The notes under the pieces: model-generated | The model's database searches: none | Told to the model about the DNA's origin: nothing | The model's input: only the letters and a program-made list of their open reading frames with translations | Made by a program: the position numbers and the translations under genes | NCBI GenBank assembly: GCA_017860615.1 | Contig: JAGDMU010000002.1 | Span: 124,001-188,000 of the forward strand | Reading direction: 5' to 3' | DNA length: 64,000 nt | Source of the DNA: Pseudomonadota bacterium | Lineage (GTDB): Bacteria; Campylobacterota; Campylobacteria; Campylobacterales; Sulfurospirillaceae | Part shown: one piece after another, positions 11,068 through 28,059 of the stretch | Layout: every line of letters starts with the position of its first letter | Position numbering within the stretch: position 1 is the stretch's first letter

Positions 11068-11915
11068 AGACTCTCACCTCTTACCATTTTCTCTATACCT
11101 TCGTGAACATTATAAGGATTTTTAAAATTTAGAAAATGTTTTGTCTTTGTATTGTCGATTTCCAAACTTTCAAATAAACGCTGATACAAAGATGGTTTTA
11201 GCCATTTCAGAAGCCCCTCTAAAAACTTTACATTTAAAAGATAAACTTTTTGCTTCTTAGCATTTGCAATGAGTTCTATAAGTTTTGTCGTAGAAAGAGG
11301 AATGTCATCACTGGCAAGGAATATACCTCTTTTTTGTGTTTGAATAATACAGTCTATCATTGCACATAGATTACCCACATAAATAAAACTACGCTTGTTG
11401 TTAATATTACCAAAAGGCAAGAGAGGTATTTTATCTATTAGGTTCATCAAACTTTTTATATTGCCAGGAGCGTTATACCCATAAACCATCGGTGGACGAA
11501 CAATAGAAATTTTAAAATGTTCATCTTCGAGCATTAGGAGCTGTTGTTCAGCTTCTAATTTACTACTACCATATAAAGAGGAAGGACCAAGCAAAGAGTC
11601 TTCACGTAAACAAACGATGGATTGATCATATACAGCAATTGTACTCATAAAAATAAAATGCTTTGCGCCACTCTCTTTTGCTTTTTGCGCGAGCGATAAC
11701 GTATGTTTAACATTAGCTTCAAAAAACATTGCTTGCGTAGCTTTTGGCTGATGCACCAAAGCAGATAAATGAACTATAACGTCCACACCGTATAAATCTA
11801 ATACGTCAAAATGATCATGTAAAAAGGAGAATGTCTGAATGTCATAGCGTTCACCATACATTTTTTGAAAAAAACTGCCAATAAACCCATTTGCCCCTGT
11901 TAATAAAAGTCTCAT
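11064..11915 (-). CDS. NAD-dependent epimerase/reductase, WbpV/WbpK-like
   Basis: Short extended-SDR sugar enzyme of 283 residues with GANGFIGS near the N-terminus, a VHLSALVHQP segment and the active site YGSSK. Family members beside WbpL-type transferases reduce UDP-4-keto-6-deoxy-GlcNAc at C4 to give UDP-QuiNAc or UDP-FucNAc. With the dehydratase at 8360 and the transferase at 10096 this makes a plausible make-and-load set for the first sugar. Which stereoisomer is made cannot be read from the sequence. Overlaps its neighbours by four bases on both sides. Confidence 0.8.
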   Translation of the reverse strand: MRLLLTGANGFIGSFFQKMYGERYDIQTFSFLHDHFDVLDLYGVDVIVHLSALVHQPKATQAMFFEANVKHTLSLAQKAKESGAKHFIFMSTIAVYDQSIVCLREDSLLGPSSLYGSSKLEAEQQLLMLEDEHFKISIVRPPMVYGYNAPGNIKSLMNLIDKIPLLPFGNINNKRSFIYVGNLCAMIDCIIQTQKRGIFLASDDIPLSTTKLIELIANAKKQKVYLLNVKFLEGLLKWLKPSLYQRLFESLEIDNTKTKHFLNFKNPYNVHEGIEKMVRGESL

Positions 11916-12658
11916 TTTCGTATTAAGCCTATAAGTTTACTAGGGTATTTTAAAAGAATTTGCCCTATATTTGTTTTGATGCCATTTTCTTTACAAACAC
12001 GTAATTGTTCTATGGTATTGATATAAAGGCTCTTCAACGATGTGCTTACGCCACCTATTCTCATTTTAATAATGGGCTCTTGTAAATAATAATAACTAAT
12101 GTTATGCGTATATAAAAATCTCGCCATCAAGTCAAAATCTGCTGCTATCTTATAATCTGTTTTAAAATAACCATATTTTTCATAAATTTCTCTTTTTACA
12201 AAGAAAGTTGGATGAGCAGGGTATAAAGCCTTTTTAAAATTGTTAGGTAAACATTTACTGCTATCATAATATCGGATAGTTCGCTCTAAATTATCAGATC
12301 GAACAAAGACAAGATCTGCAAAAAGGCTGTCAACATTATGTAGCTCAAAAATCTTAATAATTTTTTCAATGATATGATTGTTTATATACATATCATCACT
12401 GTTAAGAATACCTATCACATCGCCCGTTGCTAATTTAAGACCTTTATTCATAGCATCATAAATTCCATGATCTGGCTCACTAATAAATTTGTTTATCTTG
12501 TTGCCATACCCTTTAATAATTTCTATTGTACTATCGGTACTTGCGCCATCGATGATAATATATTCTACATTAGGATACGTTTGAGACAAAACAGATTCTA
12601 TGGCATACTTTATCGTATCTTTGTTATTCCAAACAACGGTTACTATCGATACTTTCAC
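11912..12658 (-). CDS. Family 2 glycosyltransferase
   Basis: GT-A glycosyltransferase of 248 residues, cytosolic or peripheral. The nucleotide-sugar binding start VSIVTVVWNNKDTI, DGASTDST near 37-44, EPDHGIYDAMNKG, and the metal-binding SDD at 87-89 are all present. This is the WcaA-like subgroup that often adds an inner sugar of O-antigens. Donor and acceptor unknown. The start overlaps the upstream GT4 stop by four bases. Confidence 0.88.
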   Translation of the reverse strand: MKVSIVTVVWNNKDTIKYAIESVLSQTYPNVEYIIIDGASTDSTIEIIKGYGNKINKFISEPDHGIYDAMNKGLKLATGDVIGILNSDDMYINNHIIEKIIKIFELHNVDSLFADLVFVRSDNLERTIRYYDSSKCLPNNFKKALYPAHPTFFVKREIYEKYGYFKTDYKIAADFDLMARFLYTHNISYYYLQEPIIKMRIGGVSTSLKSLYINTIEQLRVCKENGIKTNIGQILLKYPSKLIGLIRK

Positions 12659-13707
12659 TGAACATCTTCTCCAAATATTTTTAATAATTTCTGCTTGTGT
12701 ATTGCCTTCGAAAAATTATTTTGATACCTCTTTCGAATGTTTTCTGACAATGTTTCTTTATCTGTATAATCAATGAATTTTTGAATACATTTTTCTAAAT
12801 CTTCACGATTATGAGGTTCACAATAAAAAGGATAATCTTCCCCAAGCATTTCTACAATTAATCCAACATTGGTGGTTATAATAATTGTCCCTAACATCAT
12901 GGCTTCTAGTATAACCATGGGCTGACCTTCATTCCACGATGGCAATATTAAACAATCCGCTTCATAAATTTTTTTGTATTTTTCTTCTCCATTGATAAAT
13001 CCATTGATTGTAATAAAATCACTCTGATAGCTTCTTATTTTTTTTTCATTGTTATTGACAAAACTACCAAAACATTCTAATTGTCGTTCATGTTGGTTTT
13101 GAAACACATCAAAAAGTTCAAAAACACCTTTCTCTTTTATATAGTTTGAGATGTACAAAAAGCTTTTCTTACCTATCTTTTTTTCTTTTAAACTATACTC
13201 TTGATTTAATGAATTTTCAAGTACAAAAATTTTCCCTCTATGGAAAAATTCTTGGAACTCATTACTTTGATTTTGCGACAAAACGATAAGCTTGTACGTA
13301 CAATGAAAAATTAATTTTGTTACCAATCTATTGATGAAATGTGCCTGATAAAATACTTTAAAATCACCACGATGAATATGTAAAATGACTTTTCCTTTTC
13401 CACTCAATCGGAAACTTAAAATATTAAGTAGCGTTTTCAAACATCCAAATGTAGATAATGAAAAAACCGTATAAAAATAATCATATAAATTCAGTTTATT
13501 GAGAGTCATTAGTTTTGTGGCATATAAAAACACATTTTTTAGTTTTGCACCATTTCGTTTCATGTGTTCTTGTAAATCACTTTTTTCTTCAATGATATCC
13601 ACATTAAAATATTCAGCTAACAAATCTATATTTAATTGATTCGATACACTTATCCCATGTACAATATTAGGAGGTAATTCTCCAAAAAAAAGTATTTTTT
13701 TAGCCAA
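12655..13707 (-). CDS. GT-B family 4 glycosyltransferase
   Basis: Glycosyltransferase of 350 residues with the two-Rossmann GT-B layout; the donor-site EX7E motif is at E260-E268 (EGQPMVILE), followed by a TTNVGLIVEML stretch. N-terminal FGELPPNIVHGISVSN is the acceptor-domain glycine-type loop. The start at 13707 overlaps the polymerase stop by eight bases. Visibly A/T rich like the polymerase and flippase nearby, which suggests the strain-specific core of the locus. Sugar specificity unknown. Confidence 0.87.
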   Translation of the reverse strand: MAKKILFFGELPPNIVHGISVSNQLNIDLLAEYFNVDIIEEKSDLQEHMKRNGAKLKNVFLYATKLMTLNKLNLYDYFYTVFSLSTFGCLKTLLNILSFRLSGKGKVILHIHRGDFKVFYQAHFINRLVTKLIFHCTYKLIVLSQNQSNEFQEFFHRGKIFVLENSLNQEYSLKEKKIGKKSFLYISNYIKEKGVFELFDVFQNQHERQLECFGSFVNNNEKKIRSYQSDFITINGFINGEEKYKKIYEADCLILPSWNEGQPMVILEAMMLGTIIITTNVGLIVEMLGEDYPFYCEPHNREDLEKCIQKFIDYTDKETLSENIRKRYQNNFSKAIHKQKLLKIFGEDVQ

Positions 13708-15004
13708 AAGTAATCTCTTTATTGTTAGATAATCGTAGAAAAGGGAAAATAAGCAATGATAAAATAATTGTTACAAATATCGTTCGATGTGTAAAATAAT
13801 CTCCAAACAACATCAAAAACAATAACATTAATATAAAAATATATAATCCCATAAAGTTTATTTTTTTGATTAAAAGAATCATCATACCCAATACACTAAA
13901 AATGATCATAACTTCAATCCAATAAAAATATCCAAAATCTAAAAAATAAGGCTGGATAAATGTCGCTGCATTAAAACCTGAAATAGTTATTTCCATACCT
14001 TGAGCAATTCGCTCCGTATCATGTGTAAAGAAATTAAAAAAATGATTCAATTCATACGTAGGGGGAAATTCTAAGTATAATTTTAATACGTCAAAATTTA
14101 ATGCCACATAACTATAAATCCATGAAATTGCAACAGAATCAATTTGAGTTCCAAGAAAATCTTTAATGATACCATCATATCCACCTCTCTCTAGTAACCT
14201 ATATTCCCCATATAAAGAGAAAATATAGATAAATACTAAAAGAAACATTCCTATCAAAATTACTTTTTTACTACTTATTTTATTGCTAATTTTTAGAGTA
14301 ACAAAATACCAAGCAATAATAAAAAAAATAAATATTCTAACTAAATCACCTCTTTTAACATCAAAAAATCCACTAAATAGGACAATAGATAAAATTGCAA
14401 CTACGCTATATCTTCGTTTGACATAAAGTGAAAAAATGACTAACATCCATTGTAAAGATGCAGCTAAACCAGCAAACCCAGGTAATTTAAATTGGTCTCC
14501 TGATTGTATTTGTGCTATATCTCCATAATCAAAAACTCTAAATCCAACGCTATAACCAATATATAATTTCATAAAAATATATAAACACAAAATAATCAGA
14601 TAAAAAGTATTGATATTAATTTGAATATATGTCTTAAAATGCAGTTTTTTTATAGGAAGATTCTCAAAAAAATATAAGATTATAAATACTGCAAATGGTC
14701 CAATTAAAAAGATATATAAATCTTTCAACTCTTTTTCAAATTGCTTTATGCTTAGATTGAATGTATTTAAAAATAATGCGAGAAAAAAACCAAAAAGAAA
14801 AATATTATAACTATTGATGTTGTTTTTTTTGATTGACAATAAAGCATAGCACAAGAGTGTAAAAGAAACGATATACAATAAAAAATTGACGGGGTTATCC
14901 TTGTTAACAGAATCAAAAACGATTAGAGGATACAACCCCATCATTGTTAAAACTGTAAAGCTTATGTATAAAATGTGCTTTGAATTAAATGTTATTTGGT
15001 GCAT
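13700..15004 (-). CDS. Wzy-like O-antigen/polysaccharide polymerase
   Basis: A 434-residue polytopic membrane protein with roughly eleven hydrophobic segments and one large polar loop (about residues 265-330), the shape of Wzy polymerases, which join repeat units in the periplasm. Sequence conservation in this family is low, so the call rests on topology and on neighbours: Wzz-like at 7.5 kb, Wzx at 16.3 kb, glycosyltransferases on both sides. Strongly A/T rich. The ATG at 15004 overlaps the pyruvyltransferase stop by 13 bases. It could instead be an O-antigen ligase-like protein, less likely here. Confidence 0.7.
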   Translation of the reverse strand: MHQITFNSKHILYISFTVLTMMGLYPLIVFDSVNKDNPVNFLLYIVSFTLLCYALLSIKKNNINSYNIFLFGFFLALFLNTFNLSIKQFEKELKDLYIFLIGPFAVFIILYFFENLPIKKLHFKTYIQININTFYLIILCLYIFMKLYIGYSVGFRVFDYGDIAQIQSGDQFKLPGFAGLAASLQWMLVIFSLYVKRRYSVVAILSIVLFSGFFDVKRGDLVRIFIFFIIAWYFVTLKISNKISSKKVILIGMFLLVFIYIFSLYGEYRLLERGGYDGIIKDFLGTQIDSVAISWIYSYVALNFDVLKLYLEFPPTYELNHFFNFFTHDTERIAQGMEITISGFNAATFIQPYFLDFGYFYWIEVMIIFSVLGMMILLIKKINFMGLYIFILMLLFLMLFGDYFTHRTIFVTIILSLLIFPFLRLSNNKEITFG

Positions 15005-16314
15005 ATTTCGTCAATAGCATTTTCTAATTTTTGATTAATATCTAAAAGATTTAACGTTAATTCATTCTTTATTTTTATTCTATTTAATAATAAATCTTCA
15101 ATTAAGAACATTAAATTAGTGGAATTTATCGTATTAATATCAACTACATATTTTTCATAATCTTTTATTTCTTTTAGGATTCCTTTAGATTTTGTTCCAT
15201 GATAAGAAATATTGATCGAAGGAGTGCAAACAGATAATGCAAATATAACAGAATGAAGTCTTGTGCCAATAAATATTTCCATTTTTTCATATAGACTTCT
15301 CAATTGCATTGGCGTTAAATCTAAAGTATATAACTTTATACTATTTTCATACTTTGTATTATCAAAATAATCTTTTATTTTTTTGGATATTTTCATATCA
15401 TTATGCCCTAAATGCGATATATCAGTTGTAACCTGAGGAAATATATGAATAACAGCATTATGAGTATCAATGAGATGTTTCATGCTATCTATAATACTTT
15501 GTATATAATTTTCAGAACATTGCTGCTTTTCTTCTTCAGAAGATAAATATTTAAAATCATGATCCACGATGGTGTATCCAACATTAAATGCCAAATGATC
15601 AATATGAATGGGCAATAGCATCTCTTCATGTTTTAAATAAAATGCACTATCGGGGATTATTTTGCATTTACCAGAGTGGCAAATATGTTTAACAACATCA
15701 TATTTTTCTAAGCATAGCGATTCTCTTAAATATATTAAGTCAACATTTTTTATAACATACCTAAAGAGCCATTGACTCAACTGACCAATTACTGGCCCCA
15801 ATGACTGAGAAAAAATAACAGATTTTTTATTGTATCTCTTCGCTAAAACGAAAGGATATAGCATTCGTATTAACGATAAAAATTGCCGTAGAGAAGCATT
15901 CTCGGTATAAAGAAAGCTCCCACCTTTGCTTAAAATAATATCCGCATCCAAGAAAATATTTATAGATTCTACTTCGTGTTCTTTAAAACATAGTTTTATC
16001 AAAAGACGATTCTTTGAAACCAATAATAAAAGAGATTTTAAGAAATTAATTATAAAAGAAACGATTCTTAATTTATCACTGTTAAATCCAAAAAAAGTTA
16101 CAGGCTCCGGAAAAATACTTGGTAAAACCCTATTGGCATACTTCCCAATTATTTTATGATCCGTTTGTAGTCTCATATCGCCTTCACCGTATGTAGAAAG
16201 CATAGAGATATCTGCTTTTTTATCTACACGATGAATTAATTGAGTTGTCGCAATAACAATTGCTGCGTCACCTTTATTTTTATCCGTATAACAATGGGTT
16301 ATAACATACTTCAT
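14992..16314 (-). CDS. Polysaccharide pyruvyltransferase family protein
   Basis: Likely adds a pyruvate ketal to a sugar of the polymer (CsaB/WcaK-type family). The 440 residues open with TDKNKGDAAIVIATTQLI, the family's N-terminal glycine-type motif. Other matches are SQSLGPVIG near the middle and the C-terminal FIGTRLHSVIFALS, whose Arg and His are typical of the family. A poorly conserved region around 90-130 is rich in basic residues. It overlaps Wzx by four bases upstream and Wzy by 13 downstream. Substrate unknown; pyruvylation of the repeat unit is inferred. Confidence 0.83.
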   Translation of the reverse strand: MKYVITHCYTDKNKGDAAIVIATTQLIHRVDKKADISMLSTYGEGDMRLQTDHKIIGKYANRVLPSIFPEPVTFFGFNSDKLRIVSFIINFLKSLLLLVSKNRLLIKLCFKEHEVESINIFLDADIILSKGGSFLYTENASLRQFLSLIRMLYPFVLAKRYNKKSVIFSQSLGPVIGQLSQWLFRYVIKNVDLIYLRESLCLEKYDVVKHICHSGKCKIIPDSAFYLKHEEMLLPIHIDHLAFNVGYTIVDHDFKYLSSEEEKQQCSENYIQSIIDSMKHLIDTHNAVIHIFPQVTTDISHLGHNDMKISKKIKDYFDNTKYENSIKLYTLDLTPMQLRSLYEKMEIFIGTRLHSVIFALSVCTPSINISYHGTKSKGILKEIKDYEKYVVDINTINSTNLMFLIEDLLLNRIKIKNELTLNLLDINQKLENAIDEICTK

Positions 16315-17738
16315 AAACTTCTCACTCCACTTTGCTTAAGTTTATAAAAAACCATCAACAAAAATAAAAATAAACCAACATTAGCTATGACCAAATAACT
16401 TATATTGCTTGAAAAAAGATAACTTAGATATCCAAAACTTACTATCAACATAAAAAAAATCAAAAATTTTATGTAATTCATTTTCAATTTGTTATAAAAG
16501 GTACTATCATGTTTTATAACAACCATACCATATAATCCTGCCAAAGTTATATACGAGATCAAAGAGGCATAAGTCGCACCCATAGCGCCAAATAAACGTA
16601 TAAAATAAAAATTTAAAACTATATTTTCTATGATAACGACGATAGCAAAATAAACTTGAACTTTAAATATCTTTAAAATTTGTAAATGATGAGAACTGAC
16701 ATTAAAAATAGATTGAAAAATTGGGAACAATGCAAGGATAGATAAATACAAAGGAACATCATTATATTGGTGTAAATTCATAAGGTCAATAAATAATCTG
16801 GCATTAAGAGATGAAAACATATAAAAAATCAAAGCAAGAATAAAACTAAATGAAAACATTTTCTCAAAAAACTTTGTTCTCAATACCACATCATTTTTAT
16901 TATGTGCTTCTGTGGCATAAGGAAATAACGTCAAAACGATGGATGTACCAATCATCATCATCGCTATTGAAATAATTTGTGAAGCAAATCCATATTGCGC
17001 TACACTTTCTTTGCCTACAAACTTAGCTATCATTAAAGTATCTGTGTAATTTAACGCCATACTCATCAACCCAATAGGCAGAAGAGGAATTGCTACACCA
17101 TAGCCTTTCTTGATAACATCCATTTGTATCATTGAATTCAATAAGCTTCGAAGATTAATATTTATTAGAAAAATACTAAAAACCACTAATTGCCCCAAAA
17201 TAAACAGATACAAAAAATTTAAGATATTCAATTTCTCACAATATACAAGAACCAAAGTACCCACTAAAACAACAATTTTTTGCAGAAATTGCGCATAGTT
17301 CTTAAGATATATTTTTTTTACAGCAATAAAAAATCTCATTAATTCATTATTGATAAGCTCCAAAGCCAATATAAAAACGACAATGCTACCAAGAGATAAG
17401 CTTATTTCAAAAAAATTCCATACATAATGTTCTACATGCAACAAATTTACCAATGCCCATATAACGATGTACGAAATCATCACGAGAGCAATGACTGTTT
17501 TTAGATATCCATATTGCGTTTCTTCACTAGCACCTGGAATATGTAATCGTGCATAACTATAGATATTTTGTGAAAACAGCAAACCAGAGAAAGCAATAAA
17601 GCCTTGAATCAAGACATATTCGCCATATTCAGTCACATGAAGGTATTTAATCATAAGAAATAAAGATACAAAACCAACAATAATATTCAATACGCTAAAT
17701 AATTGCGTATGGAGTATTTGCTTAAAATATTCAGGCAT
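16311..17738 (-). CDS. Wzx-type oligosaccharide flippase
   Basis: Multidrug/oligosaccharide-lipid/polysaccharide exporter-fold protein that moves the undecaprenyl-linked repeat unit across the inner membrane. About 475-486 residues with some 12-14 hydrophobic helices spread along the whole length. I choose the ATG at 17738 (MPEYFKQ), which overlaps the upstream stop by eight bases and has GGGAAG just before it. A GTG at 17771 and an ATG at 17765 are alternatives. The PglK-like ABC protein at 46346 is a second, different flippase in the window. Confidence 0.85.
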   Translation of the reverse strand: MPEYFKQILHTQLFSVLNIIVGFVSLFLMIKYLHVTEYGEYVLIQGFIAFSGLLFSQNIYSYARLHIPGASEETQYGYLKTVIALVMISYIVIWALVNLLHVEHYVWNFFEISLSLGSIVVFILALELINNELMRFFIAVKKIYLKNYAQFLQKIVVLVGTLVLVYCEKLNILNFLYLFILGQLVVFSIFLININLRSLLNSMIQMDVIKKGYGVAIPLLPIGLMSMALNYTDTLMIAKFVGKESVAQYGFASQIISIAMMMIGTSIVLTLFPYATEAHNKNDVVLRTKFFEKMFSFSFILALIFYMFSSLNARLFIDLMNLHQYNDVPLYLSILALFPIFQSIFNVSSHHLQILKIFKVQVYFAIVVIIENIVLNFYFIRLFGAMGATYASLISYITLAGLYGMVVIKHDSTFYNKLKMNYIKFLIFFMLIVSFGYLSYLFSSNISYLVIANVGLFLFLLMVFYKLKQSGVRSL

Positions 17739-19377
17739 TATCTTCCCAAATAAAGGGTAAGCCATTTTCACATTTATGAATAAACCAATCTACCACTTTA
17801 TTGTTTCCAGGAGCTAACTCCATAGAACTGTTAAAATTATATTGCGTAAACGTTAAAGCTTTATGGGTATATGTATTTTCAGGAAAATGTCTTTTATAAA
17901 TCCAATGATAAGCGTATTTTTCGACTCTTTCTTTCATAATATCAGTCATGAAGAGTTCTCTTTTAGCCGCTTTTACGAGAAGATTAGTATATGCTTGAAT
18001 ATCTTGAGGTTCAAAAACAAACCCTTTATTGCTTATCATAGATTGCCCTGTCTGAATAACTGTTTTTCCTGCAAAAGCCAGTTCTAATGCCATAGTAGAT
18101 GCAAAAAATAAATTTATATCACACAAGTCCGAAACAACATAACTTGTTAAATCATCATCAGGTCCAATGTAACATATATTGGAAGGGAGGACTGGTAAAA
18201 TATGATTGATGAGATCTTTAACTCTTTCTTGACTTAAATTATATCGATCTGCTAACTCTGCTGGATGAGCACGAATAATCAAATCACATTCTGGATGTTC
18301 TATAAACCATTTTAGTGTCACTTCTAAAAATTTATCAAGGGAGCCAAATTCTTGACTTGAAGAAAATGTTGTTCCATCCCACGGAATATTTGGGAATAAA
18401 GCAAATTTCACTCTTTCATTTTTTTGGAGGATTGAATACATATTTGTATTCATATCATGCGCTTTCCCCTCATAATAATTGACATAATCTGCTGTTCTTG
18501 TAAAGTCTTTTTTAGCTAAAAAATATTCTTTTATTTGTTTTTTCTGAATATCTGAAAGCATAATATTTTCCCAATATTCATTAGGTTCTTTTGCACATTC
18601 AAAAATATATGAATCATTATAATCAGCTAGAACATTACCTCGAACATACCCACGTCCCCACACTATCGTTTTAATTTTTTCTTTTTTACAAGCTTCAATT
18701 GCGCCTCCCCAAGTACTATAGACACCATGAGACAGTAATACAAATTTTGGTTTTAATATATTGATTAATGTTTTTGTAGCTTCATAAGACACAATGGTCG
18801 AATAGGCAAATTCGTGAATTATTTTTTTATGTTTAATCAAATCTATTTTACTTGACAATAAATATCTTATGACTGCCATTTGAATCTGATTACCCAACAA
18901 ACTATCATCATACACTAAAGATAATAAACTTTGAGTGGTTTTACTATTAATATATTCTCTAATGGACTGAAGTTTTTCGTCATTCAAAATATCCGAATAA
19001 TAATGAGCAGAAATACCAAACGTATCTATGAACCTTTTTTGTTCATAAAAACATAAAGAACAGTTAAACATATTTTCCTTAATAGACGTTTGGTTTTCAC
19101 ATTTTTGAAGTGTTTGTCCACAAAACAATCCATGCACTCTGTATCCTGCTAATTTTAAAGCGTATCCATAGATACCTTCAAACAAATTAGATACAGGTGC
19201 TACTCGAATAGGAAGTATTAAAACATTTCCTTTTTCGGCTAAAGGAATTTTTTCATTTTTTCGTAATTGTTTAAACTGCGCAAAAGGATCAGCTTTTTTT
19301 CTATACCTATATTTTTTCAATAATGGTGAAATTAAATTCGTTATCTTATTCATTGCAAAATTATGACAATAGATCAT
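17731..19377 (-). CDS. Large GT-B-like surface polysaccharide protein; candidate nonulosonic acid transferase
   Basis: About 548 residues; not a family I can name with certainty. I choose the ATG at 19377, overlapping the pseA-like stop as ATGA, with GGAAAG upstream; an ATG at 19353 is an alternative. Visible: a basic start, ILPIRVAPVSNLFEG (Rossmann-like), two Cys pairs (CGQTLQKC and CSLCF), and LLSHGVYSTWGG. Near the C-terminus is LIIRAHPAE with H371-P372, then FFASTMALELAFAGK with S427-T428. An HP motif followed by a Ser/Thr pair is typical of GT-B enzymes using CMP-sialic acid or CMP-Kdo (for example KpsC/KpsS). Its place beside the legionaminic acid genes suggests it transfers that sugar; this is inference. 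Confidence 0.6.
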   Translation of the reverse strand: MIYCHNFAMNKITNLISPLLKKYRYRKKADPFAQFKQLRKNEKIPLAEKGNVLILPIRVAPVSNLFEGIYGYALKLAGYRVHGLFCGQTLQKCENQTSIKENMFNCSLCFYEQKRFIDTFGISAHYYSDILNDEKLQSIREYINSKTTQSLLSLVYDDSLLGNQIQMAVIRYLLSSKIDLIKHKKIIHEFAYSTIVSYEATKTLINILKPKFVLLSHGVYSTWGGAIEACKKEKIKTIVWGRGYVRGNVLADYNDSYIFECAKEPNEYWENIMLSDIQKKQIKEYFLAKKDFTRTADYVNYYEGKAHDMNTNMYSILQKNERVKFALFPNIPWDGTTFSSSQEFGSLDKFLEVTLKWFIEHPECDLIIRAHPAELADRYNLSQERVKDLINHILPVLPSNICYIGPDDDLTSYVVSDLCDINLFFASTMALELAFAGKTVIQTGQSMISNKGFVFEPQDIQAYTNLLVKAAKRELFMTDIMKERVEKYAYHWIYKRHFPENTYTHKALTFTQYNFNSSMELAPGNNKVVDWFIHKCENGLPFIWEDNA

Positions 19378-20594
19378 TCTTGGATTTCTTTCCAAATAGG
19401 GTTCTTTAACTCCCACTTACCATACTGTTTTTCCCAAAGATGCGGTGTTCTAAATTTTTCAATGACATCATGGTATCTTTCAAGAGTTATATCCATGTAT
19501 GAACAACAATCTTTAATATATTGCTCAGGAAATTCACCATCAAACCTTTTAATAAGAGCAATACCTTCATCCCTTGTTATATCTCCATTTCTCACTTCTT
19601 GCGCCGAATCATATGTAGCTCTACCAATACCAAATTTAATCGTTGTTGTATGATAATGCAACCAATCAATTTTATCATCAAGTGAGCTATACTTGCTAAA
19701 GCTTCCTTCCGTTCGATGATCATTTGGCATAAAATCTGTATTTTCAATCGAATAATAATACGTCTCTTGCGGATGCCATTTGACATAATAACCAAGGTAA
19801 TGAACTGTCGTACCTGTTTTTTGGAGATCATACGGATTGACAGGGAAATATGCTTCTAAATCAGATAATTTAAATTTAAAGTCATGAATAAGATCCTTTG
19901 CAGGGATACCACCCAAAACTAAATCCGCAATACTAAGTTCTGCACTATAGTATTTTGGATCCCTTGTTGGTTTTTCATTGTCTTCAATGGCATTACCATA
20001 TTCGGCTTCATTTTCACCAAAGATAACTAACGGAATATCAAGTAAAACAGATAATCGCGGCGCTAAATTTTTCTGTCCCAAAATAAAGGGCTGAAAAGGA
20101 TGTCCAAGATTTTCAAAAGCACTTTTTGTTAAAAATCTATGTAGCTTTCTATTTTGGTTATAGGTATAATTGGCAAAACCTGCATTTAGCCATGATTCGA
20201 AATTTCTTCTACCAATCTCTGTGTATAATGCCGGTGGCCAAGTTATAAGTATAGGATTCATATTATATTTATACTTCAACATGTGTGCTGCTTGAACACT
20301 GTCTTTGCCGCCACTTCCAGGGACTACGACGTCATATCTGCCATCATTACGTCTGTATTTATTGCAAAGTTCGATAAGTTCTTTTTCTCGCTCTTCCCAG
20401 TTGATTTTCTTTTTTCGTTCTGCATATCTACATGCCTCGCAAATACCATCTTCACCAAAAACTAATGTTCTTTTCTTCTCGCCTTCTTTTTGTTTAAATT
20501 CAACCGTTGAAGATGGTCGTTGATTATTCATGGTACATTTTTTACAAAATTTAACCTCTAAAGGCAGACCATATCTTCCAAGTAATTCACTCAT
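19374..20594 (-). CDS. N-acetyl sugar amidotransferase, PseA/LegX/WbpG family
   Basis: PP-loop ATP-dependent enzyme that converts a sugar acetamido group to acetamidino. The 406 residues show a Cys pair C17/C20 (KFCKKCTM), a second pair C52/C55 (CEAC) likely holding zinc, and the ATP-binding SGGKDS at 94-99. HisH2 and HisF2 lie just upstream, the arrangement seen with WbpG in Pseudomonas and PseA in C. jejuni. Because the rest of the set makes legionaminic acid, Leg5Ac7Ac or its precursor is the likely substrate. PseA and PtmG/LegX cannot be told apart by eye. Confidence 0.88.
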   Translation of the reverse strand: MSELLGRYGLPLEVKFCKKCTMNNQRPSSTVEFKQKEGEKKRTLVFGEDGICEACRYAERKKKINWEEREKELIELCNKYRRNDGRYDVVVPGSGGKDSVQAAHMLKYKYNMNPILITWPPALYTEIGRRNFESWLNAGFANYTYNQNRKLHRFLTKSAFENLGHPFQPFILGQKNLAPRLSVLLDIPLVIFGENEAEYGNAIEDNEKPTRDPKYYSAELSIADLVLGGIPAKDLIHDFKFKLSDLEAYFPVNPYDLQKTGTTVHYLGYYVKWHPQETYYYSIENTDFMPNDHRTEGSFSKYSSLDDKIDWLHYHTTTIKFGIGRATYDSAQEVRNGDITRDEGIALIKRFDGEFPEQYIKDCCSYMDITLERYHDVIEKFRTPHLWEKQYGKWELKNPIWKEIQE

Positions 20595-20606: not shown

Positions 20607-21209
20607 TTATAATGCTATAAAATTTTGAAATAGTTTAATGCCAGCTTGACGGCTTTTTTCAGGATGGAACTGAACACCATAAATATTATTGAAATGAACA
20701 GAAGAGACAAACTTATGTCCTGCATAATCACTGAGCGATGCAATATTGGTATAATTTACAACTTCATACGAATGCATAAAATAAAACTCCTCATTTTCTA
20801 ATCCCTCTAAAACTTTATTAGGAGCGATGACATCTATAGTATTAAACCCCATATGAGGGACTTTGGCATCTACAAGCATTGGTTTTACTTCTGCTTTTAT
20901 AACATCAAGCCCTTCTGTTTTTCCATATTCAAAGCCTAATGTTGCAAGAATTTGCATACCTAAACAAATACCTAAAGTAGGTTTGCTTTTGATGGCTTCT
21001 TTCAATGGAGTGATCAAGCCATCTTTTTCTAGTTCGCTCATAGCATCTTTAAAACTACCAACGCCTGGAATCACAATCTTACCAACAGATTCAAACTCTG
21101 TTGCATGATTGATAATTTTAACAATTCCACCAGCTTTTTCAATCGCTTTTTTAATACTATGAATATTCCCAGCAATACCATAGTTGATTAATCCAATAAT
21201 GTTGCTCAT
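20607..21209 (-). CDS. HisH-like glutaminase of the sugar amidotransferase triad (HisH2)
   Basis: Class I glutamine amidotransferase of 200 residues: nucleophile C82 in [20 protein letters not shown] near 47-57, and FHPEKS with the catalytic His and Glu near the C-terminus. It should release ammonia from glutamine and channel it through the HisF-like partner to the PP-loop enzyme. It is clearly a paralogue of the histidine-pathway HisH at 3742, but it pairs with HisF rather than HisA. The start overlaps the HisF2 stop by four bases. Confidence 0.88.
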   Translation of the reverse strand: MSNIIGLINYGIAGNIHSIKKAIEKAGGIVKIINHATEFESVGKIVIPGVGSFKDAMSELEKDGLITPLKEAIKSKPTLGICLGMQILATLGFEYGKTEGLDVIKAEVKPMLVDAKVPHMGFNTIDVIAPNKVLEGLENEEFYFMHSYEVVNYTNIASLSDYAGHKFVSSVHFNNIYGVQFHPEKSRQAGIKLFQNFIAL

Positions 21210-21961
21210 TTTGAAACCTTTATTCCAACACTTCTTAAATACTCTTTAATATCGTTGATCGTATATTTGTTATAGTGAAGTAGACTTGCGATAGCAACAC
21301 CACTAGGCTTGGCATATTCTATAAGTTCTTTTATATTTTCCAAACTTCCCGCACCACTTGTAACAACGACAGGGATTTGAACACTTTCTACAACTTTTTT
21401 TGCAAGCTCTTTATCAAATCCTCTTTGTCTGCCATCATGATCAACAGACTGTAAGATGATTTCCCCTGCTCCTCTTTGCTCAACTTCTTTGACCCAAGCA
21501 AGAACATCCTTTCCGCTTCTAATCCGACCACAATCGGTATAACATTCCCACCACGTATCCCATTTTTTAGCTTCAATGTTAACAACTACAGCTTGGTTAC
21601 CAAATATTTCTGCTGCCTTATTGATAATATCTGGGTTTTTTTGTACAGCATAGGTATTTAAAATAACTTTGTCTGCACCAACATGAAACAGTTTGGAAAA
21701 ATCTTCAATGGTTTGAACACCACCGCCAACCCCAAAAGGGATAAATAACGCATTAGCGGCTTTTTCAATTTCATCAAATAGTATTTCTCGTTGATAAAGA
21801 GATGCCACAATATCAATATAGATAACTTCATCGGCACCTTGATCATAATATTTTTGTGCTAATTCTAATGGTGTACCAATCTTTCGTAAGCCTTCAAAAT
21901 GAACTGGCTTCACAACATAGGGTGGCTTAACGTCAAGTTTTGCGATAATTCTCGTATTCAA
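21206..21961 (-). CDS. HisF-like protein of the sugar amidotransferase triad (HisF2/AglZ-like)
   Basis: A 251-residue (beta/alpha)8 barrel like the cyclase subunit of imidazole glycerol phosphate synthase. It keeps the first catalytic Asp (AKLDVKPP) and the GGGVQTIEDF and VVTSGAGS phosphate loops. The N-terminal strand reads LDVKPPYVVKPVHFEGLR instead of the canonical CLDVKDGRVVKGVNF, the mark of the glycan-associated subfamily. Expected role: ammonia channel for the PseA/LegX enzyme. It lies nine bases from ptmA. Confidence 0.87.
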   Translation of the reverse strand: MNTRIIAKLDVKPPYVVKPVHFEGLRKIGTPLELAQKYYDQGADEVIYIDIVASLYQREILFDEIEKAANALFIPFGVGGGVQTIEDFSKLFHVGADKVILNTYAVQKNPDIINKAAEIFGNQAVVVNIEAKKWDTWWECYTDCGRIRSGKDVLAWVKEVEQRGAGEIILQSVDHDGRQRGFDKELAKKVVESVQIPVVVTSGAGSLENIKELIEYAKPSGVAIASLLHYNKYTINDIKEYLRSVGIKVSK

Positions 21962-21970
21962 ACATTCTCC

Positions 21971-22684
21971 TTATAAACTAAATCCATCATCAACAACAAT
22001 ATTCTGACCATTAACATATTGACTCATATCACTTAAAAGATAAATCAATGAACCATTGAGGTCTGAATTATTGAGCATTCCTTTATTTAAACACACATCC
22101 TTATACTGTTTTAAAAACAGTTCATTTTGCCCATCAAGTATGCCTCCAGGACTAATACAGTTAACTCGAATATTTGAACCTTTAAGGTATTTGGCTACAT
22201 ATTTTGTCATATGAATCACACCTGCTTTAATAGCGCTATAAGCAACAGGAGAACTCATAGAAGTACCTTCATACGTCTCAAACTTAGGAGCTACAACACC
22301 TTGTATGGAAGAAATATTGACGATATTTCCATATCCTTGCTCTTTAAAATATTTTGCAAATTGTTGCATAATTAAAAAAGCTCCACCCAATTGAAGGTTG
22401 GTATTGATGCAAAAATCTTCATAGTCAACATCAAAAAAGTGATTTCCAAATGTTTTTGTTCTAGGATACGCACTATTAACAACGGCATCAATTTTCCCAT
22501 ATTTTTCTTTAACGTTTTCTATCAACTTTTGAATGGATTCTTTTGATGTTATATCCGCAGGATATTCTTTACTCACAATATCTGCACATATTGCAATACC
22601 ATGAGCCTCCGTTACTGCGCGAATAAATGACTGCCCTAATAATCCAGCTCCACCTATAATCACAATGACCTTATTATTGAGCAT
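21971..22684 (-). CDS. ptmA: Short-chain dehydrogenase PtmA-like
   Basis: Classical SDR oxidoreductase of 237 residues: GGAGLLGQSF cofactor loop near 11-20, NSAYPR, Ser of NISSIQG, and YSAIKAG active-site Tyr/Lys near 147-151. The position just after LegF and the order legI-legG-ptmE-ptmF-legF-ptmA match C. jejuni Cj1327-Cj1332, where PtmA is assigned to an early step supplying the glucosamine precursor. The exact reaction is less certain than for the other pathway members. The start overlaps the LegF stop by 11 bases. Confidence 0.82.
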   Translation of the reverse strand: MLNNKVIVIIGGAGLLGQSFIRAVTEAHGIAICADIVSKEYPADITSKESIQKLIENVKEKYGKIDAVVNSAYPRTKTFGNHFFDVDYEDFCINTNLQLGGAFLIMQQFAKYFKEQGYGNIVNISSIQGVVAPKFETYEGTSMSSPVAYSAIKAGVIHMTKYVAKYLKGSNIRVNCISPGGILDGQNELFLKQYKDVCLNKGMLNNSDLNGSLIYLLSDMSQYVNGQNIVVDDGFSL

Positions 22685-23378
22685 TTTTCTTCCTCATCAT
22701 AAATTCAACAAACTCAAAATCAAGCTCAGTATCTATATCGATTGATCGCTCTTCTGGCATCACATAAAGCCCAGTTTTTTCAAGAAATAGATTTTTTTGA
22801 TCTAAAAGGCTTTCTCTTTTCCAAATATAAATCGAAGCATTCATATCATAACTTTTAGGAGCATCTTGTCTTCTAACGATAGAGCTATCTAGTTTTTTTG
22901 AAAGGGTAACTTTCCCATCATTACTCACTTCTACAAGATTAAAATAAGGGCTTCTTCTACTTGGCATTGCGGTTATTAAGTTGCTATTGTCATCTTTTAA
23001 AAATTGTGCAAATGAGTTTTTGATGTCATCAACACTACGAAGTGGTGCTGTTGCGTCCAAATCTATGAGATAATCATACTGCTTTTGGTAATATGCTTCA
23101 CTTCGAACAAAAGCATCTTTGATAACATCCAATTTACCTGCCGTATCACTTGCCATCTCACTACTTCTTTTAAAAAATACCTCAGCGCCATATTCTTGTG
23201 CTACCTTTGCAATATCATCTGAATCTGTACTAATAACGATATGATCAAACAGCCCTGATTCTTTTGCTTGTTCTATCGTATAAGCGATTAAAGGTTTGCC
23301 ATTTAGTTCTTTAATATTTTTATTTTTAACACCTTTTGATCCACCTCTCGCACAAATGGTGCATAAAACATAACTCAT
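22674..23378 (-). CDS. legF: CMP-legionaminic acid synthetase LegF (PtmB)
   Basis: Activates legionaminic acid with CTP, the last step before transfer. The 234-residue cytidylyltransferase shows CARGGSKGVKNKN near 10-22, the CTP-binding signature of NeuA/LegF proteins. STDSDDIAKVA and the metal Asp in DYLIDLDATAPLRS are also present. NeuA and LegF are close in sequence; the surrounding legI, legG and ptmE genes decide for legionaminic acid over sialic acid. Overlaps PtmF by four bases. Confidence 0.85.
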   Translation of the reverse strand: MSYVLCTICARGGSKGVKNKNIKELNGKPLIAYTIEQAKESGLFDHIVISTDSDDIAKVAQEYGAEVFFKRSSEMASDTAGKLDVIKDAFVRSEAYYQKQYDYLIDLDATAPLRSVDDIKNSFAQFLKDDNSNLITAMPSRRSPYFNLVEVSNDGKVTLSKKLDSSIVRRQDAPKSYDMNASIYIWKRESLLDQKNLFLEKTGLYVMPEERSIDIDTELDFEFVEFMMRKKNAQ

Positions 23379-24283
23379 CTATTTTGCTCCTGAATAATAG
23401 CAATGGTTTTCATGACATCTTGCGCTTCAAGATACGTACAAGCTGTTGAATCATTGCATAAGATAGACTTGTGCATCTCTTTAAACATACTATTGCGCTC
23501 TAAACTATTGCATTCATATCTTTGTTCTAAGCCTTCTTTGTTTTTTTGGATTAAACTATGATTGATAAAATCTAACTCATATGTATGCTCTAACGTATGT
23601 ACAACCATGTGTCTTCGTGTAATTTTGCTAATGTAATCCATAGAGAGGCTAACCACTACACCCTTTTGAGTTTTTGCAATCAATGTAACAATGTCATCCG
23701 AGTCTATCTCTAAATCAGAGATTTTTAATTGATAACTCTGAATCTCGACCATGTTTCCGCAAAGCCACTGAACATAATCTATCTCGTGGCTTAAATCTAA
23801 AAGAACACCACCGCCCTCTGTTTTTTTCGCACTATAAGAGCTTCTATAATCAGTATCCTTCCTCCATGTTGGCAAATACTGGCCACAATAAACATTCACA
23901 CTCATCACTTTTTCATTATAAAGCAGTGTTTTGAGTTTTTGAACCAAGGGATGAAATCTTAAAACATATCCTAAAAAAACACTATTGTGCGATATATCTA
24001 AGGTTTTATCCGTTTCAAATAAAGGTTTTTCACACAAGATTAATTTTTGACTTACGTTGGATTCTAAATATGCGAGTTGTTCAAAATGTTTATAGGTTTC
24101 GCTCGCAATAACAATATAGTCATAACTTTCTAATTTTTCGACACTATCAAGTGTTGGAAAAGTTATCTTATGCTCTAATATTTGTTTCGTGACAATATGA
24201 ATAGACTCGATTTGTAAAAAAGTTGACAAAACTTCTTCATGCCTTTTCCCAATCGAACCATAACCAATAATTAATACTTTCAC
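23375..24283 (-). CDS. ptmF: Gfo/Idh/MocA-type oxidoreductase, PtmF-like
   Basis: NAD(P)-dependent oxidoreductase of 302 residues with the N-terminal GYGSIGKRHEEVL Rossmann start (about 7-19), CEKPLFE catalytic Lys region near 100, and a GGGVLLDLSHEIDYVQWL segment carrying the family's catalytic His. It is the positional match of C. jejuni Cj1330 (PtmF), between ptmE and legF. The partner role with PtmA in early precursor formation is known for the locus but I cannot define the reaction from sequence. One-base overlap with ptmE. Confidence 0.8.
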   Translation of the reverse strand: MKVLIIGYGSIGKRHEEVLSTFLQIESIHIVTKQILEHKITFPTLDSVEKLESYDYIVIASETYKHFEQLAYLESNVSQKLILCEKPLFETDKTLDISHNSVFLGYVLRFHPLVQKLKTLLYNEKVMSVNVYCGQYLPTWRKDTDYRSSYSAKKTEGGGVLLDLSHEIDYVQWLCGNMVEIQSYQLKISDLEIDSDDIVTLIAKTQKGVVVSLSMDYISKITRRHMVVHTLEHTYELDFINHSLIQKNKEGLEQRYECNSLERNSMFKEMHKSILCNDSTACTYLEAQDVMKTIAIIQEQNR

Positions 24284-25329
24284 TAAAACACATCCCCATA
24301 CTCACTATTGGCTCTCTCATACTCTTCCATACGCCCAATATCTAACCAATACTCTCTTATTGGAAACGAGAGTGTATTTTCGCCAAAAGTGATGAGTTTT
24401 TCAAATAACGTGGGCATATCAAAAAATTCATTTTTATCGATATGTTTGATAGCCTCTGGATTTAACATGTAAATGCCAGCACTCACAAAAAACTTCTGAA
24501 TAGGCTTCTCTTTGATAGATATTATTTTACTATCTTGTATATTAACAACGCCATAAGGTACTTGAAAGTCATATTCTCTTACGCACATCGTTGCCATCGC
24601 ATTATTAGATAAATGGTAATGGTAGAGGTGCTCAAAGTTTACATTCGTCAGTAAATCACCGTTCATAACAAAAAATGGCTCACTCGGAACTGTTCCCAGA
24701 AGGCTTAGTGCTCCTGCTGTTCCCATCCTTTGTGTTTCTAAGATATACTCAATGTTAACCCCAAACTCACTTCCATCTTTAAAATAATCTTGAATCACAT
24801 TTGATTTATAGTTGACGCACATGACAATATTGACAAACCCATACTCGGCAAATTTTTCAACAATCGTTTGAAGTATCGGTTTATTACCAACCATTAGCAT
24901 AGGTTTAGGTGTATTTTCAGTCAGCGGTCGAAGTCTCGTACCCAAGCCTCCAACCATCAGTACAACTTTGTTAGGTTTCAGAGTTGGGCTGACCAGTTCT
25001 TCTATTTCTTTAATCCCTATGACTCGATTTTCATCATCTACGACAGGGATTTGATGCAGTTTTTTAGCAAGCGCTTTTTTTAAAATCTCTTCTTTCGTAT
25101 CACTGATTTTTGCAACCGTTGGATTTTTATAGATAATAGGATCAATAAGACTATTTAAATCCAGCCCATTTAATAATCCTCTTCGTATATCACCATCTGT
25201 TATAGTACCTATCAACTTACCATCTTCATCCACAACGATGGCTATTTGCATCGCACCACTGTCAATAATTTTTAATGCTTCTTTAATCGTTGAAGATGGC
25301 ATGAGTTTTATATGGCTGATTGAATTCAT
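24283..25329 (-). CDS. ptmE: CBS-domain sugar nucleotidyltransferase PtmE
   Basis: Guanylyltransferase expected to make GDP-glucosamine from glucosamine-1-phosphate for legionaminic acid synthesis. The 348 residues start with a CBS pair (about 5-115: TITDGDIRRGLL, then HQIPVVDDENRVIG). A nucleotidyltransferase domain follows, with GGLGTRLRPLTENTPKPML near 127-145 and MNGDLL. The CBS-plus-transferase fusion is the hallmark of PtmE. CBS domains often bind adenine nucleotides, so control by energy state is possible. The start overlaps the LegG stop by four bases. Confidence 0.88.
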   Translation of the reverse strand: MNSISHIKLMPSSTIKEALKIIDSGAMQIAIVVDEDGKLIGTITDGDIRRGLLNGLDLNSLIDPIIYKNPTVAKISDTKEEILKKALAKKLHQIPVVDDENRVIGIKEIEELVSPTLKPNKVVLMVGGLGTRLRPLTENTPKPMLMVGNKPILQTIVEKFAEYGFVNIVMCVNYKSNVIQDYFKDGSEFGVNIEYILETQRMGTAGALSLLGTVPSEPFFVMNGDLLTNVNFEHLYHYHLSNNAMATMCVREYDFQVPYGVVNIQDSKIISIKEKPIQKFFVSAGIYMLNPEAIKHIDKNEFFDMPTLFEKLITFGENTLSFPIREYWLDIGRMEEYERANSEYGDVF

Positions 25330-26492
25330 TGCATACTATCCAAATCATAAAATGTTTTTTTCACTATATTCTTCAAGTCCACACTGGCAACGATTTTTAA
25401 AATTTCTTGACTTGCACATCCATCACCATAAGGATTCGCAACCATCTTTAAATGCTCTTGAAATGTTATAGAGTAAAGCTTATCAAATGCCTCTTTAAGA
25501 CTTTGTCTTGTAGGTTCACAATCAATGATACTAAAAGCTTTAATACGCCCTTTTTGCCTATCTCCAATATTAATCGTGCCTATTTTAAAACTTGGAGCTT
25601 CAAGTAAGCCACTTGAACTATTGCCTACCATTGCATCCATAAACTGTAAAGCACTGAGATAGCGTAACTGACCTAATGAGGTAAATCCAATCGCTTTATG
25701 AGGATTTTGTGAAACATAGGCGTCAATCATTTGGTTAATGATTCTTCCATCTGTATCACTATTGGCTTTGGTAAAAATAATATGCGTTTCTTCAAGCTTG
25801 TCGATTGCATCAAGAAGTTCTTGAAATTGTTGTTGTGCAGTTGTATTTTCCAATGTAACAGGATGAAAGGTTACTAAGATATTTTTTTTAGCTAATTTAA
25901 AATCAATTGATTTTTCAAACGCTTCTTTTGAGAGCAGTTCTAGTCGTTTAATATTTTCAATTCCCAAACCACCAACATTAAAAACCCTTAAAGGATCTTC
26001 TCCTAGTTGAATAACGCGTTTACGATAAACTTCGGTCGCGACAAAATGAAGATGACTCATTTTGGTAATGCTATGCCTCATAGCCTCATCATAAGCGCCT
26101 TCTGTCGTTTCTCCACCATGAAGATGTGCGATGGGAATACGAGCTATCGTAGCAGCACTGGCTGCTGAAAATATTTCATAGCGATCCCCCAAAACAATCA
26201 CTAAATCAGGTTTAAGCTCATCGTAGGCTTCTGCAAAAGAAATTTGAGCGAGCCCCATTGATTTGGATATAGCGATGGGTGTATCACTTGAGAGAAGAAT
26301 CTCAATCTTCTTATTAATTTTAAACTCTTTTTCGATCTCTTTATACGTTAGTCCAAACTCTGGGCTTAGATGCATGCCTGTAACAATAAGCTGAAGTTCT
26401 AACGTCTTCTCTGCAACGATTGATCTCATGAGCCAGTATAAAAGCCCATATTCTGCACGCGTTCCCGTTACAACACATATTTTTCGTTTCAT
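25326..26492 (-). CDS. legG: Hydrolysing NDP-N,N'-diacetylbacillosamine 2-epimerase LegG
   Basis: NeuC-type GT-B-fold epimerase that releases the NDP group and yields 2,4-diacetamido-2,4,6-trideoxymannose, the precursor condensed with phosphoenolpyruvate. The 388 residues show VTGTRAEYGLL near 8-18, LHGGETTEGAYDEAMRHSITKMSH, FHPVT, and the C-terminal VGNSSSGLLEAPSF that binds the nucleotide. The gene sits between legI and ptmE. NeuC versus LegG is decided by context. Confidence 0.88.
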   Translation of the reverse strand: MKRKICVVTGTRAEYGLLYWLMRSIVAEKTLELQLIVTGMHLSPEFGLTYKEIEKEFKINKKIEILLSSDTPIAISKSMGLAQISFAEAYDELKPDLVIVLGDRYEIFSAASAATIARIPIAHLHGGETTEGAYDEAMRHSITKMSHLHFVATEVYRKRVIQLGEDPLRVFNVGGLGIENIKRLELLSKEAFEKSIDFKLAKKNILVTFHPVTLENTTAQQQFQELLDAIDKLEETHIIFTKANSDTDGRIINQMIDAYVSQNPHKAIGFTSLGQLRYLSALQFMDAMVGNSSSGLLEAPSFKIGTINIGDRQKGRIKAFSIIDCEPTRQSLKEAFDKLYSITFQEHLKMVANPYGDGCASQEILKIVASVDLKNIVKKTFYDLDSMQ

Positions 26493-27487
26493 ATGAGCTC
26501 ATCTTCATCATAATTTTTCGATGCCATTGTTCCAATAACCTCATCCCATCGCATAGGACTTAAACCATTGCCTGGTCTTTTGATAGCAATATTATCACTA
26601 CTTAAAACTTCACCTATCTGAATTTTTTTGCTCGCAACAATTGATTTACGTGCAATGGGCATATTTTTTGCCTCACTCTTACTTGGCTGTTTAATACCAT
26701 CACCTAAAGCTTGCTCTATATTTCGTATTGCTTTAACCATTGCCATCAATTCATCCGGCTCCAAAGAAGCCTTATGATCAGGTCCTTCCATTGATCTGTC
26801 TAAAGTAAAATGTTTTTCAATAACCGATGCGCCTAGGGCAACTGCGGCAATAGGTACTTCTATACCTTGGGTATGGTCTGAATATCCAACATGAACGCTA
26901 AAAGCATCTGCAATGGTTTGCATAGCCTTTAAATTTACATCTTCTATGGGGCATGGATATTCTGTTGTTGCATGCAAAACCGTAATACGCTCTTTTGGTG
27001 TTCCTTCCTTAATGAGAATATCAAGGGCATCTTTAATTTCATCTAAATTTGCCATACCTGTTGAAAGAACAACCTCTTTTTTCAAGCTTCCAATCAGACG
27101 GAGATAAGGAAGATTGGTAATCTCACCACTTGGGATTTTAAAAATAGGCATTTCAAGACGATGAAGCAAAGCGATACTTTCATGGTCAAACGGTGTTGAA
27201 AGAAAAAGAATGTTTTTTAGCTTGCAATAGGAAATAAGCTCATGATGTGCTATTTCATCTAATTCTAACTTTTTAATCATGTCATATTGAGATTCTGCGC
27301 TATCGGTTGTTTCTTTTTGATACTCAGCCTTTTGTGCTTTTTTTGAAACAAGTTTATCTGCTTTAAACGTTTGAAATTTAACGGCATCTGCTCCTGCATC
27401 ACTCGCAACATCAATAAGTTTTTTAGCAATTTCTAGGCTCCCGTTGTGATTGACCCCAGCTTCTGCAATAATAAAAACTTTACTCAC
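26489..27487 (-). CDS. legI: Legionaminic acid synthase LegI (NeuB family)
   Basis: Condenses the 6-deoxy-diacetamido mannose product with phosphoenolpyruvate to give N,N'-diacetyllegionaminic acid. The 332 residues form a TIM barrel (AEAGVNHNGSLEIAKKL near 8-24; VKFQTFKADKLVS; PSGEITNLPYL; VGYSDHTQGI; EKHFTLDRSMEGPDHKASL). A C-terminal SAF antifreeze-like domain follows (about 275-332, ARKSIVASKKIQIGEVLSS). This domain order is diagnostic for NeuB-type synthases. Overlaps LegG by four bases and LegH by four. Confidence 0.9.
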   Translation of the reverse strand: MSKVFIIAEAGVNHNGSLEIAKKLIDVASDAGADAVKFQTFKADKLVSKKAQKAEYQKETTDSAESQYDMIKKLELDEIAHHELISYCKLKNILFLSTPFDHESIALLHRLEMPIFKIPSGEITNLPYLRLIGSLKKEVVLSTGMANLDEIKDALDILIKEGTPKERITVLHATTEYPCPIEDVNLKAMQTIADAFSVHVGYSDHTQGIEVPIAAVALGASVIEKHFTLDRSMEGPDHKASLEPDELMAMVKAIRNIEQALGDGIKQPSKSEAKNMPIARKSIVASKKIQIGEVLSSDNIAIKRPGNGLSPMRWDEVIGTMASKNYDEDELI

Positions 27488-28059
27488 TTGGCAACACTCC
27501 CAGCTTTTACAAAACCACTCACATGTACATACTCTTTACATGTAGCATTACTTCCATAAAACGTTCCTGCTTTTACATGAGCCCCACCATTAATGATAGC
27601 ACCTGTTGAGATATGACAATTGTCTTCAATAATAGAATCATGTTCTATGAGTGCTTTTGTATTAATGATACAATTTTGGCCTATTGTGACATTGGCATTA
27701 ATCAGAGCATGGTGCATAATTACCGTGCCCTCGCCTAACGTCGCATGTTTTGACACATAGGCTAATGGAGAGATGACAATGGGTAGTTCATAACCAAAAG
27801 ATTTGAGCATTTCAAAAAGTTTGATTCTGGTTTCAGGAGATTTGATTTGACCAACGGTAATAAGAGTATATTTATAGTGATGACGCAAATCTTTTAAATC
27901 CTCATCACTGCCTAAAATTCTGTAGCCTAAAACTTCACTTCCAACAAGCTCTTTTGTATCGATAATGCCTGCAATTTCAAATCTATTTTCCTGTTCAATG
28001 ACATCAATCACCGATCTGCAATGCCCTCCACCACCGATAAGAAGAATTTGCTTTTTCAT
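27484..28059 (-). CDS. legH: N-acetyltransferase LegH (PglD/NeuD family)
   Basis: Left-handed beta-helix acetyltransferase of 191 residues. The N-terminal GGGGHCRSVIDVI binds the nucleotide part, and hexapeptide repeats fill residues 105-185. The EHDSIIEDNCHIS segment holds the likely catalytic His near 141-142. It should acetylate the 4-amino sugar made by LegC. PglD of the bacillosamine route has the same fold, so it could serve both; the position between legC and legI supports LegH. Four-base overlaps on each side. Confidence 0.85.
   Translation of the reverse strand: MKKQILLIGGGGHCRSVIDVIEQENRFEIAGIIDTKELVGSEVLGYRILGSDEDLKDLRHHYKYTLITVGQIKSPETRIKLFEMLKSFGYELPIVISPLAYVSKHATLGEGTVIMHHALINANVTIGQNCIINTKALIEHDSIIEDNCHISTGAIINGGAHVKAGTFYGSNATCKEYVHVSGFVKAGSVAK

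Follow-up and report, generated by a model that had tools for sequence, protein, structure and literature searches.

A likely legionaminic acid transferase of an apparently undescribed GT-B family related to the retaining Kdo transferases KpsS and KpsC

Legionaminic acid (Leg) is a bacterial sialic-acid-like sugar, and the synthesis of CMP-legionaminic acid is known in detail. Information on legionaminyltransferases was described as very limited in a 2024 paper, in which the named example is the putative flagellin transferase Maf4 (PMC11356810). Outside the Maf proteins, the systems closest to the one presented here are retaining Kdo and Pse transferases. In WbbB (GT99) the sugar adduct arises on the Asp of a QxxxD motif, whose Gln binds the carboxylate of the sugar; the His of an HP motif contacts the phosphate (PMC9587256). 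In KrkA (GT140) CMP is held by S271, S272, H227 and E276, with D193 acting as nucleophile (PMC12887879), and an adduct on KrkA D193C has been shown by mass spectrometry. The roles of (K/R)xHP, Ser-Ser...Glu and QxxxD have been described for GT99, GT107 and GT140 (PMC9587256, PMC12887879). That a nonulosonic acid transferase of this superfamily can be retaining has been published for the Pse5Ac7Ac transferase KpsS1 (GT118), a KpsS homologue with 30% identity to E. coli KpsS (cited in PMC12887879).

We analysed a gene at 17731..19377 on the minus strand of the window (the whole stretch of 64,000 nucleotides under study). Based on its reading frame, predicted fold, profile comparisons and homologues, we regard its product as a candidate CMP-legionaminic acid transferase with two Rossmann-like domains. 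It is likely to be a cytoplasmic GT-B glycosyltransferase of an undescribed family that moves Leg from CMP-legionaminic acid, probably in amidinated form, to the undecaprenyl-linked repeat unit of a Wzx/Wzy surface glycan, retaining the anomeric configuration via D334. The two-Rossmann fold, the CMP-sugar motifs, the remote kinship with KpsS and KpsC and the linkage to nonulosonic acid genes together give this transferase reading computational support.

The reading frame extends from an ATG at 19377 to a stop at 17731 (548 codons), and a purine-rich stretch (ggaaagaaa) precedes the ATG; an alternative GTG start at 19416 would yield 561 residues. An earlier sequence-only reading had described a 548-residue protein, without giving its strand, as coupled through ATGA to a PseA/LegX gene, and the coordinates bear this out: at 19374..19377 (minus strand) the stop of the PseA/LegX gene (19374..20594) overlaps the start of the target. 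The two segments quoted in that reading, LIIRAHPAE (H371-P372) and ASTMALELAFAGK (S427-T428), are present exactly as claimed. The first contains R369-A-H-P372 (18262..18273, minus strand), a (K/R)xHP motif for which a CMP-binding role would follow from PMC12887879. The second contains S427-T428-M-A-L-E432 (18082..18099, minus strand), a putative phosphate- and ribose-binding motif whose spacing equals that of S271-S272-x-x-x-E276 in KrkA (PMC12887879) and which recurs in the homologues. All 81 stop-to-stop frames in the window that reach at least 100 residues were scanned for [KR]xHP with [ST][ST]x3E 35-80 residues further along, and the target alone contained the pair, in line with the earlier claim. 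Among composition shuffles of the protein, 0.16% show this pattern, and the motif residues are conserved across the homologues, beyond chance occurrence of the pattern.

The suggestion that the protein may represent a new transferase family agrees with our finding that it matches no Pfam or NCBIfam family above cut-off. A search of the PDB with the single sequence likewise gave no relative above cut-off. Matches to PF21120 (E 1.8e-4, below cut-off) and Sigma70_r4 covered about 20 residues and were taken as spurious. The sialyltransferase Pfam models (GT29/38/42/52/80) matched neither the target nor the family members searched, and PF01973 (Maf) did not match the target. PF05159 (Capsule_synth) did not match the target, the gathering cut-off not being reached, and gave weak matches in 4 of 10 family members (best E 0.0016).

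AlphaFold models were made of two distant family members from shallow alignments of seven sequences. They showed two Rossmann-like domains at moderate confidence (pLDDT 74-75, pTM 0.72-0.73), with pLDDT below 50 in the loop that contains D334. GT-B proteins filled the Foldseek list, so that a GT-B fold is predicted for the family as the earlier reading had supposed. The best TM-scores were obtained with the CMP-Kdo transferase KpsC, mostly 0.47-0.54 by target length, over alignments of about 300-350 columns with an rmsd from 6.5 Å. UDP-GlcNAc 2-epimerases had the lowest E-values, with TM-scores of about 0.3 and an rmsd of about 12 Å; kinship with epimerases on the Foldseek E-value alone was rejected because the superposition is poor and the NeuC profile scores lower. 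In profile comparisons, with E-values that refer to single comparisons of small alignments, the probabilities were 94 for KpsS (E 9e-8), 93 for KpsC (E 2e-7), 63 for NeuC, 7 for a 'surface carbohydrate biosynthesis' protein and 0.2 for GT4. Both Kps alignments placed RAHP on KHHP or KPHP, the STMALE segment on the corresponding Ser/Thr segment, and N330 and D334 on the Q and D of QxxxD, with D334 on the nucleophile Asp. A profile search of the PDB returned KpsC and WbbB as its first two distinct molecules, both weakly (E 0.18 and 0.7).

Thirty-six divergent homologues were collected and aligned. A tblastn search of plasmids gave homologues in Legionella adelaidensis (31% identity over 97%) and Azospirillum, a class-wide search gave the homologue in genome G075, and genome contigs gave six more. 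The others came from profile searches of the Legionellales, the order of G398 (Vibrio), the Pseudomonadota and the Campylobacteria, while phage records and viral contigs contained none. Position 369 is K or R, and H371 and P372 are kept, in 36/36 homologues. E432 is Glu in 34 of the 36, and position 334 is acidic throughout (Asp in 30, Glu in 6). In the N330-I-P-W-D334 segment (18376..18390, minus strand), which aligns with the QxxxD nucleophile motif, N330 is found in 14 of 16 core members, which also keep W333, D334 and E374; nearly all members have N, H or S, and not Q, at this position. The spacing from this Asp to the His is 37 residues, versus 33-34 in the compared Kdo transferases. The N-terminal domain carries a four-cysteine motif, C86-x6-C93-x12-C106-x2-C109 (19051..19122, minus strand), whose cysteines are each kept in 15-16 of the 16 core members and which is a possible metal site, zinc or iron-sulphur. 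It is absent from the branch of the family formed by L035, L036 and L040. In the tree, the window protein grouped with four Legionella proteins (support 100/100).

Compared with KpsS and KpsC, beta-Kdo transferases of PF05159 (GT107 for KpsC), the target has a predicted two-Rossmann GT-B architecture, (K/R)xHP, the ST...E motif and an Asp at the position that aligns with the nucleophile of QxxxD; KpsS and KpsC are its best profile matches and KpsC the best by TM-score. Unlike them, it falls below the PF05159 cut-off, its family has N, H or S for Q at position 330, it has an extra N-terminal region with four cysteines, and it is located in nonulosonic acid loci. It resembles KpsS1 as a proposed nonulosonic acid transferase of the same superfamily, but it escapes detection by PF05159 and is expected to use Leg as donor. 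The same motif set, with Q where the target has N330, occurs in the retaining Kdo transferases WbbB and KrkA, which nevertheless have no significant sequence similarity to the target (WbbB E 0.7) and another gene context. Maf proteins too use CMP donors for the transfer of Leg or Pse, yet they belong to PF01973 and act on flagellin, and the genome's own Maf protein is encoded elsewhere. The earlier proposal of a CMP-Leg transferase is supported by the predicted GT-B fold and by co-occurrence with NeuB, whereas the nearest known enzymes turned out to be retaining Kdo/Pse transferases of the PF05159 superfamily and not the sialyltransferase families. We place the target as founder of a family close to GT99, GT107, GT118 and GT140, apparently undescribed in that it is absent from Pfam and NCBIfam.

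The operon runs in the order LegB, LegC, LegH, LegI, LegG, PtmE, Gfo/Idh, LegF, PtmA-like SDR, HisF, HisH, PseA/LegX and target, followed by a Wzx-like flippase, a pyruvyl transferase, a Wzy-like protein, GT4, GT2, an epimerase, an initiating transferase, a WbpM-like protein, Wzz and PglB. On the minus strand, LegH, LegC and LegB (27484..30400) were assigned from reading frames and homologues, the LegI/NeuB-type nonulosonic acid synthase (26489..27487) from TIGR03569 (E 1e-158) and PF03102, the LegG/NeuC-type hydrolysing 2-epimerase (25326..26492) from TIGR03568 (E 4e-146), and a PtmE-type nucleotidyltransferase with an N-terminal CBS-like part (24283..25329) from an NCBIfam profile search. 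The LegF/NeuA-type CMP-nonulosonate synthetase (22674..23378) matched TIGR03584 at E 2e-49, below the family cut-off, and the PtmA-like SDR (21971..22684) is conserved beside homologues. The HisF-like (21206..21961) and HisH-like glutaminase (20607..21209) partners of the amidotransferase were recognised from reading frames and tblastn homologues, and the PseA/LegX-type N-acetyl sugar amidotransferase itself (19374..20594) by TIGR03573. Directly after the target lies the Wzx-like flippase (16311..17771, MatE/Polysacc_synt_3 by Pfam), and the Wzy-like polymerase, GT4 and GT2 (11912..15004; reading frames, Pfam) are further glycan assembly genes of the same operon. Judged from known pathways, the NeuC and NeuB types, not PseG/PseI, indicate legionaminic (or a related) acid, and the presence of PseA-HisH-HisF suggests that this sugar carries an amidine group; in L. 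pneumophila a PtmG homologue is described for the same amidination step (PMC3766260). The polysaccharide pyruvyl transferase (14992..16314) was considered as the Leg transferase and rejected; it lacks the motif pair and did not align (hhalign 0.1).

The gene immediately downstream of Wzz, at 5387..7567 (minus strand) and oriented like the Leg/Wzx/Wzy genes of the operon, encodes a PglB/STT3 oligosaccharyltransferase (PF21436 E 2e-53, WWDYG); the operon glycan may be destined for protein in addition to lipid. Elsewhere in the window we observed an asparagine-synthase-like protein (36963..38906, minus strand), within a second glycan cluster that also contains three GT4 genes, and a 690-residue protein with two tandem GT4 domains (58277..60349, plus strand). 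In another region of the genome (C27:190509-211568), a second NeuB-family gene (C27:190509) and a Maf protein (C27:211053), the genome's only PF01973 match, lie about 20 kb apart and are likely to form a separate system for flagellar glycosylation.

Synteny between the target and Leg genes is maintained across phyla. The Legionella genomes G526 and G458 have a LegF-PtmA-(PseA, HisH, HisF)-target arrangement, with the full order in G526 being LegG, LegI, LegH, PtmE, Gfo/Idh, LegF, PtmA, PseA, HisH, HisF, an acetyltransferase-like gene, target and flippase. In locus L007 and in L. adelaidensis an acetyltransferase-like gene lies between PtmA and the target, with no amidotransferase in that stretch; the tailoring genes thus vary while the transferase is constant. 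In G350, of the same genus as the window, the Leg genes are 60-82% identical (LegF/I/C/B 72-82%) and a diverged family member occupies the target's place, a pattern to be expected with a different acceptor or a different form of the donor.

The surroundings of each homologue were searched by tblastn for nonulosonic acid genes; the thresholds were set after the data had been seen, and distances were taken by hand from listed positions. Of 18 genomes, 15 had NeuB no more than 12 kb from the homologue, against 8 of 152 GT4 (PF00534) genes at such a distance among the matches listed (the best matches) in the same genomes (Fisher p 3e-13); at 15 kb the figures were 15/18 versus 17/152 GT4 genes among the matches listed. 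The supposed co-occurrence with a nonulosonic acid synthase holds in that all 18 homologue-bearing genomes checked carry NeuB, against a base rate of 113 in 289 Pseudomonadota genomes; no NeuB was found in G837, the genome of a distant member (L084). G402 has NeuA near the homologue, and G401 and G501 have neither NeuA nor NeuB near theirs. In a second sample of 16 further loci, NeuA or NeuB was near 10, and L076, L082 and L089 had other pathway genes nearby. L011, L034, L083, L084 and L085 had no NeuA or NeuB in the flank read, and L083-L085 had no nonulosonic acid pathway gene near the family member either.

Some further features of these loci were recorded. An apparent NeuA-transferase fusion in L081 was ruled out since the coordinates put the two in different reading frames, making them adjacent genes. 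Two family members lie about 8-12 kb apart in opposite orientation within one polysaccharide locus (L075, L076, L077), and a similar methyltransferase-like protein (FkbM-like by eye) adjoins the family member in L008 (11650..12558), L004 (566..1489), L009 (7595..8521) and L010 (6983..7852). In L006 (1306..2796) a 'surface carbohydrate biosynthesis protein' adjoining neuB also has RPHP and SSTAIE and is possibly another group of nonulosonic acid transferases.

From these data a mechanism can be proposed. The adjacent PseA-HisH-HisF genes would probably make the amidinated CMP-Leg donor, a donor suggested by the gene neighbourhood together with the CMP motifs, and the motifs point to a donor site in the C-terminal Rossmann-like domain. 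There, R369, H371, S427, T428 and E432 would bind CMP, H371 and S427/T428 holding the phosphate and E432 the ribose, while N330 would replace the carboxylate-binding Gln. As the nearest known enzymes are retaining Kdo/Pse transferases, a retaining mechanism via D334 is suggested: attack by D334 on the anomeric carbon would give an intermediate in which the sugar is covalently bound to the enzyme, and the acceptor would then displace the sugar from it, so that the donor's anomeric configuration would be retained. The acceptor and the stereochemistry of transfer are, like the donor, our inference, and acidic position 67 is a candidate general base.

The stereochemistry might instead be inverting, with the same donor, as in the GT38/42/52/80 sialyltransferases: the acceptor would attack directly with the help of an N-terminal-domain base, the opposite anomer would form and D334 would be structural. 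(K/R)xHP and Ser/Thr motifs are indeed common to inverting sialyltransferases and retaining Kdo transferases (PMC12887879), and position 67 in the N-terminal domain is Asp or Glu in 15 of 16 core members. We nonetheless consider inversion unlikely, given that the target has no match to the Pfam models of those families, that KpsS and KpsC are nearest by both profile and structure, and that the residue at the nucleophile position of the retaining enzymes is acidic in every homologue. A different question is the sugar. An enzyme for CMP-Kdo, the donor of KpsS and KpsC, or for an NDP-sugar of the rest of the repeat unit could merely share the operon, Leg being added by another enzyme; operon position alone does not define the donor, linkage to a Leg cluster would be compatible with another one, and a few homologues (L034, L083-L085) lie away from nonulosonic acid genes. 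The specificity of that linkage relative to the GT4 genes among the matches listed, the synteny across phyla, the absence of the CMP motif pair from other window ORFs and the location of Maf in a separate region that has a NeuB-family gene to itself make this quite improbable. Least probable of all, and by our estimate very remote, is a GT-B-fold protein that is no transferase, such as an epimerase-like or CMP-nonulosonic acid-tailoring enzyme. The Foldseek E-values of WecB/NeuC-type epimerases and the position of the gene after those for donor tailoring would fit this, but the epimerases superpose poorly (rmsd about 12 Å), the NeuC profile scores lower than KpsS/KpsC, the cluster already has a NeuC-type epimerase, and the CMP motifs suit a donor-using enzyme.

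The retaining Leg transferase that we favour provides a candidate gene for the attachment of Leg to the surface glycan and so makes a long-missing step testable. With about even confidence, we further propose that the homologues make up a large and hitherto undescribed family of transferases that use CMP-nonulosonic acids with retention, present in at least Campylobacterota and Pseudomonadota, which would supply the missing glycan transferase for Leg and related sugars and would be marked by an N-x-x-W-D nucleophile motif and a four-cysteine, possibly metal-binding, N-terminal element. If true, a family linked to nonulosonic acid loci across many genomes would identify the transferase of numerous surface glycans and offer an enzyme for Leg-glycan synthesis. 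It would also bring further nine-carbon sugars within the range of the double-displacement CMP-sugar transferases.
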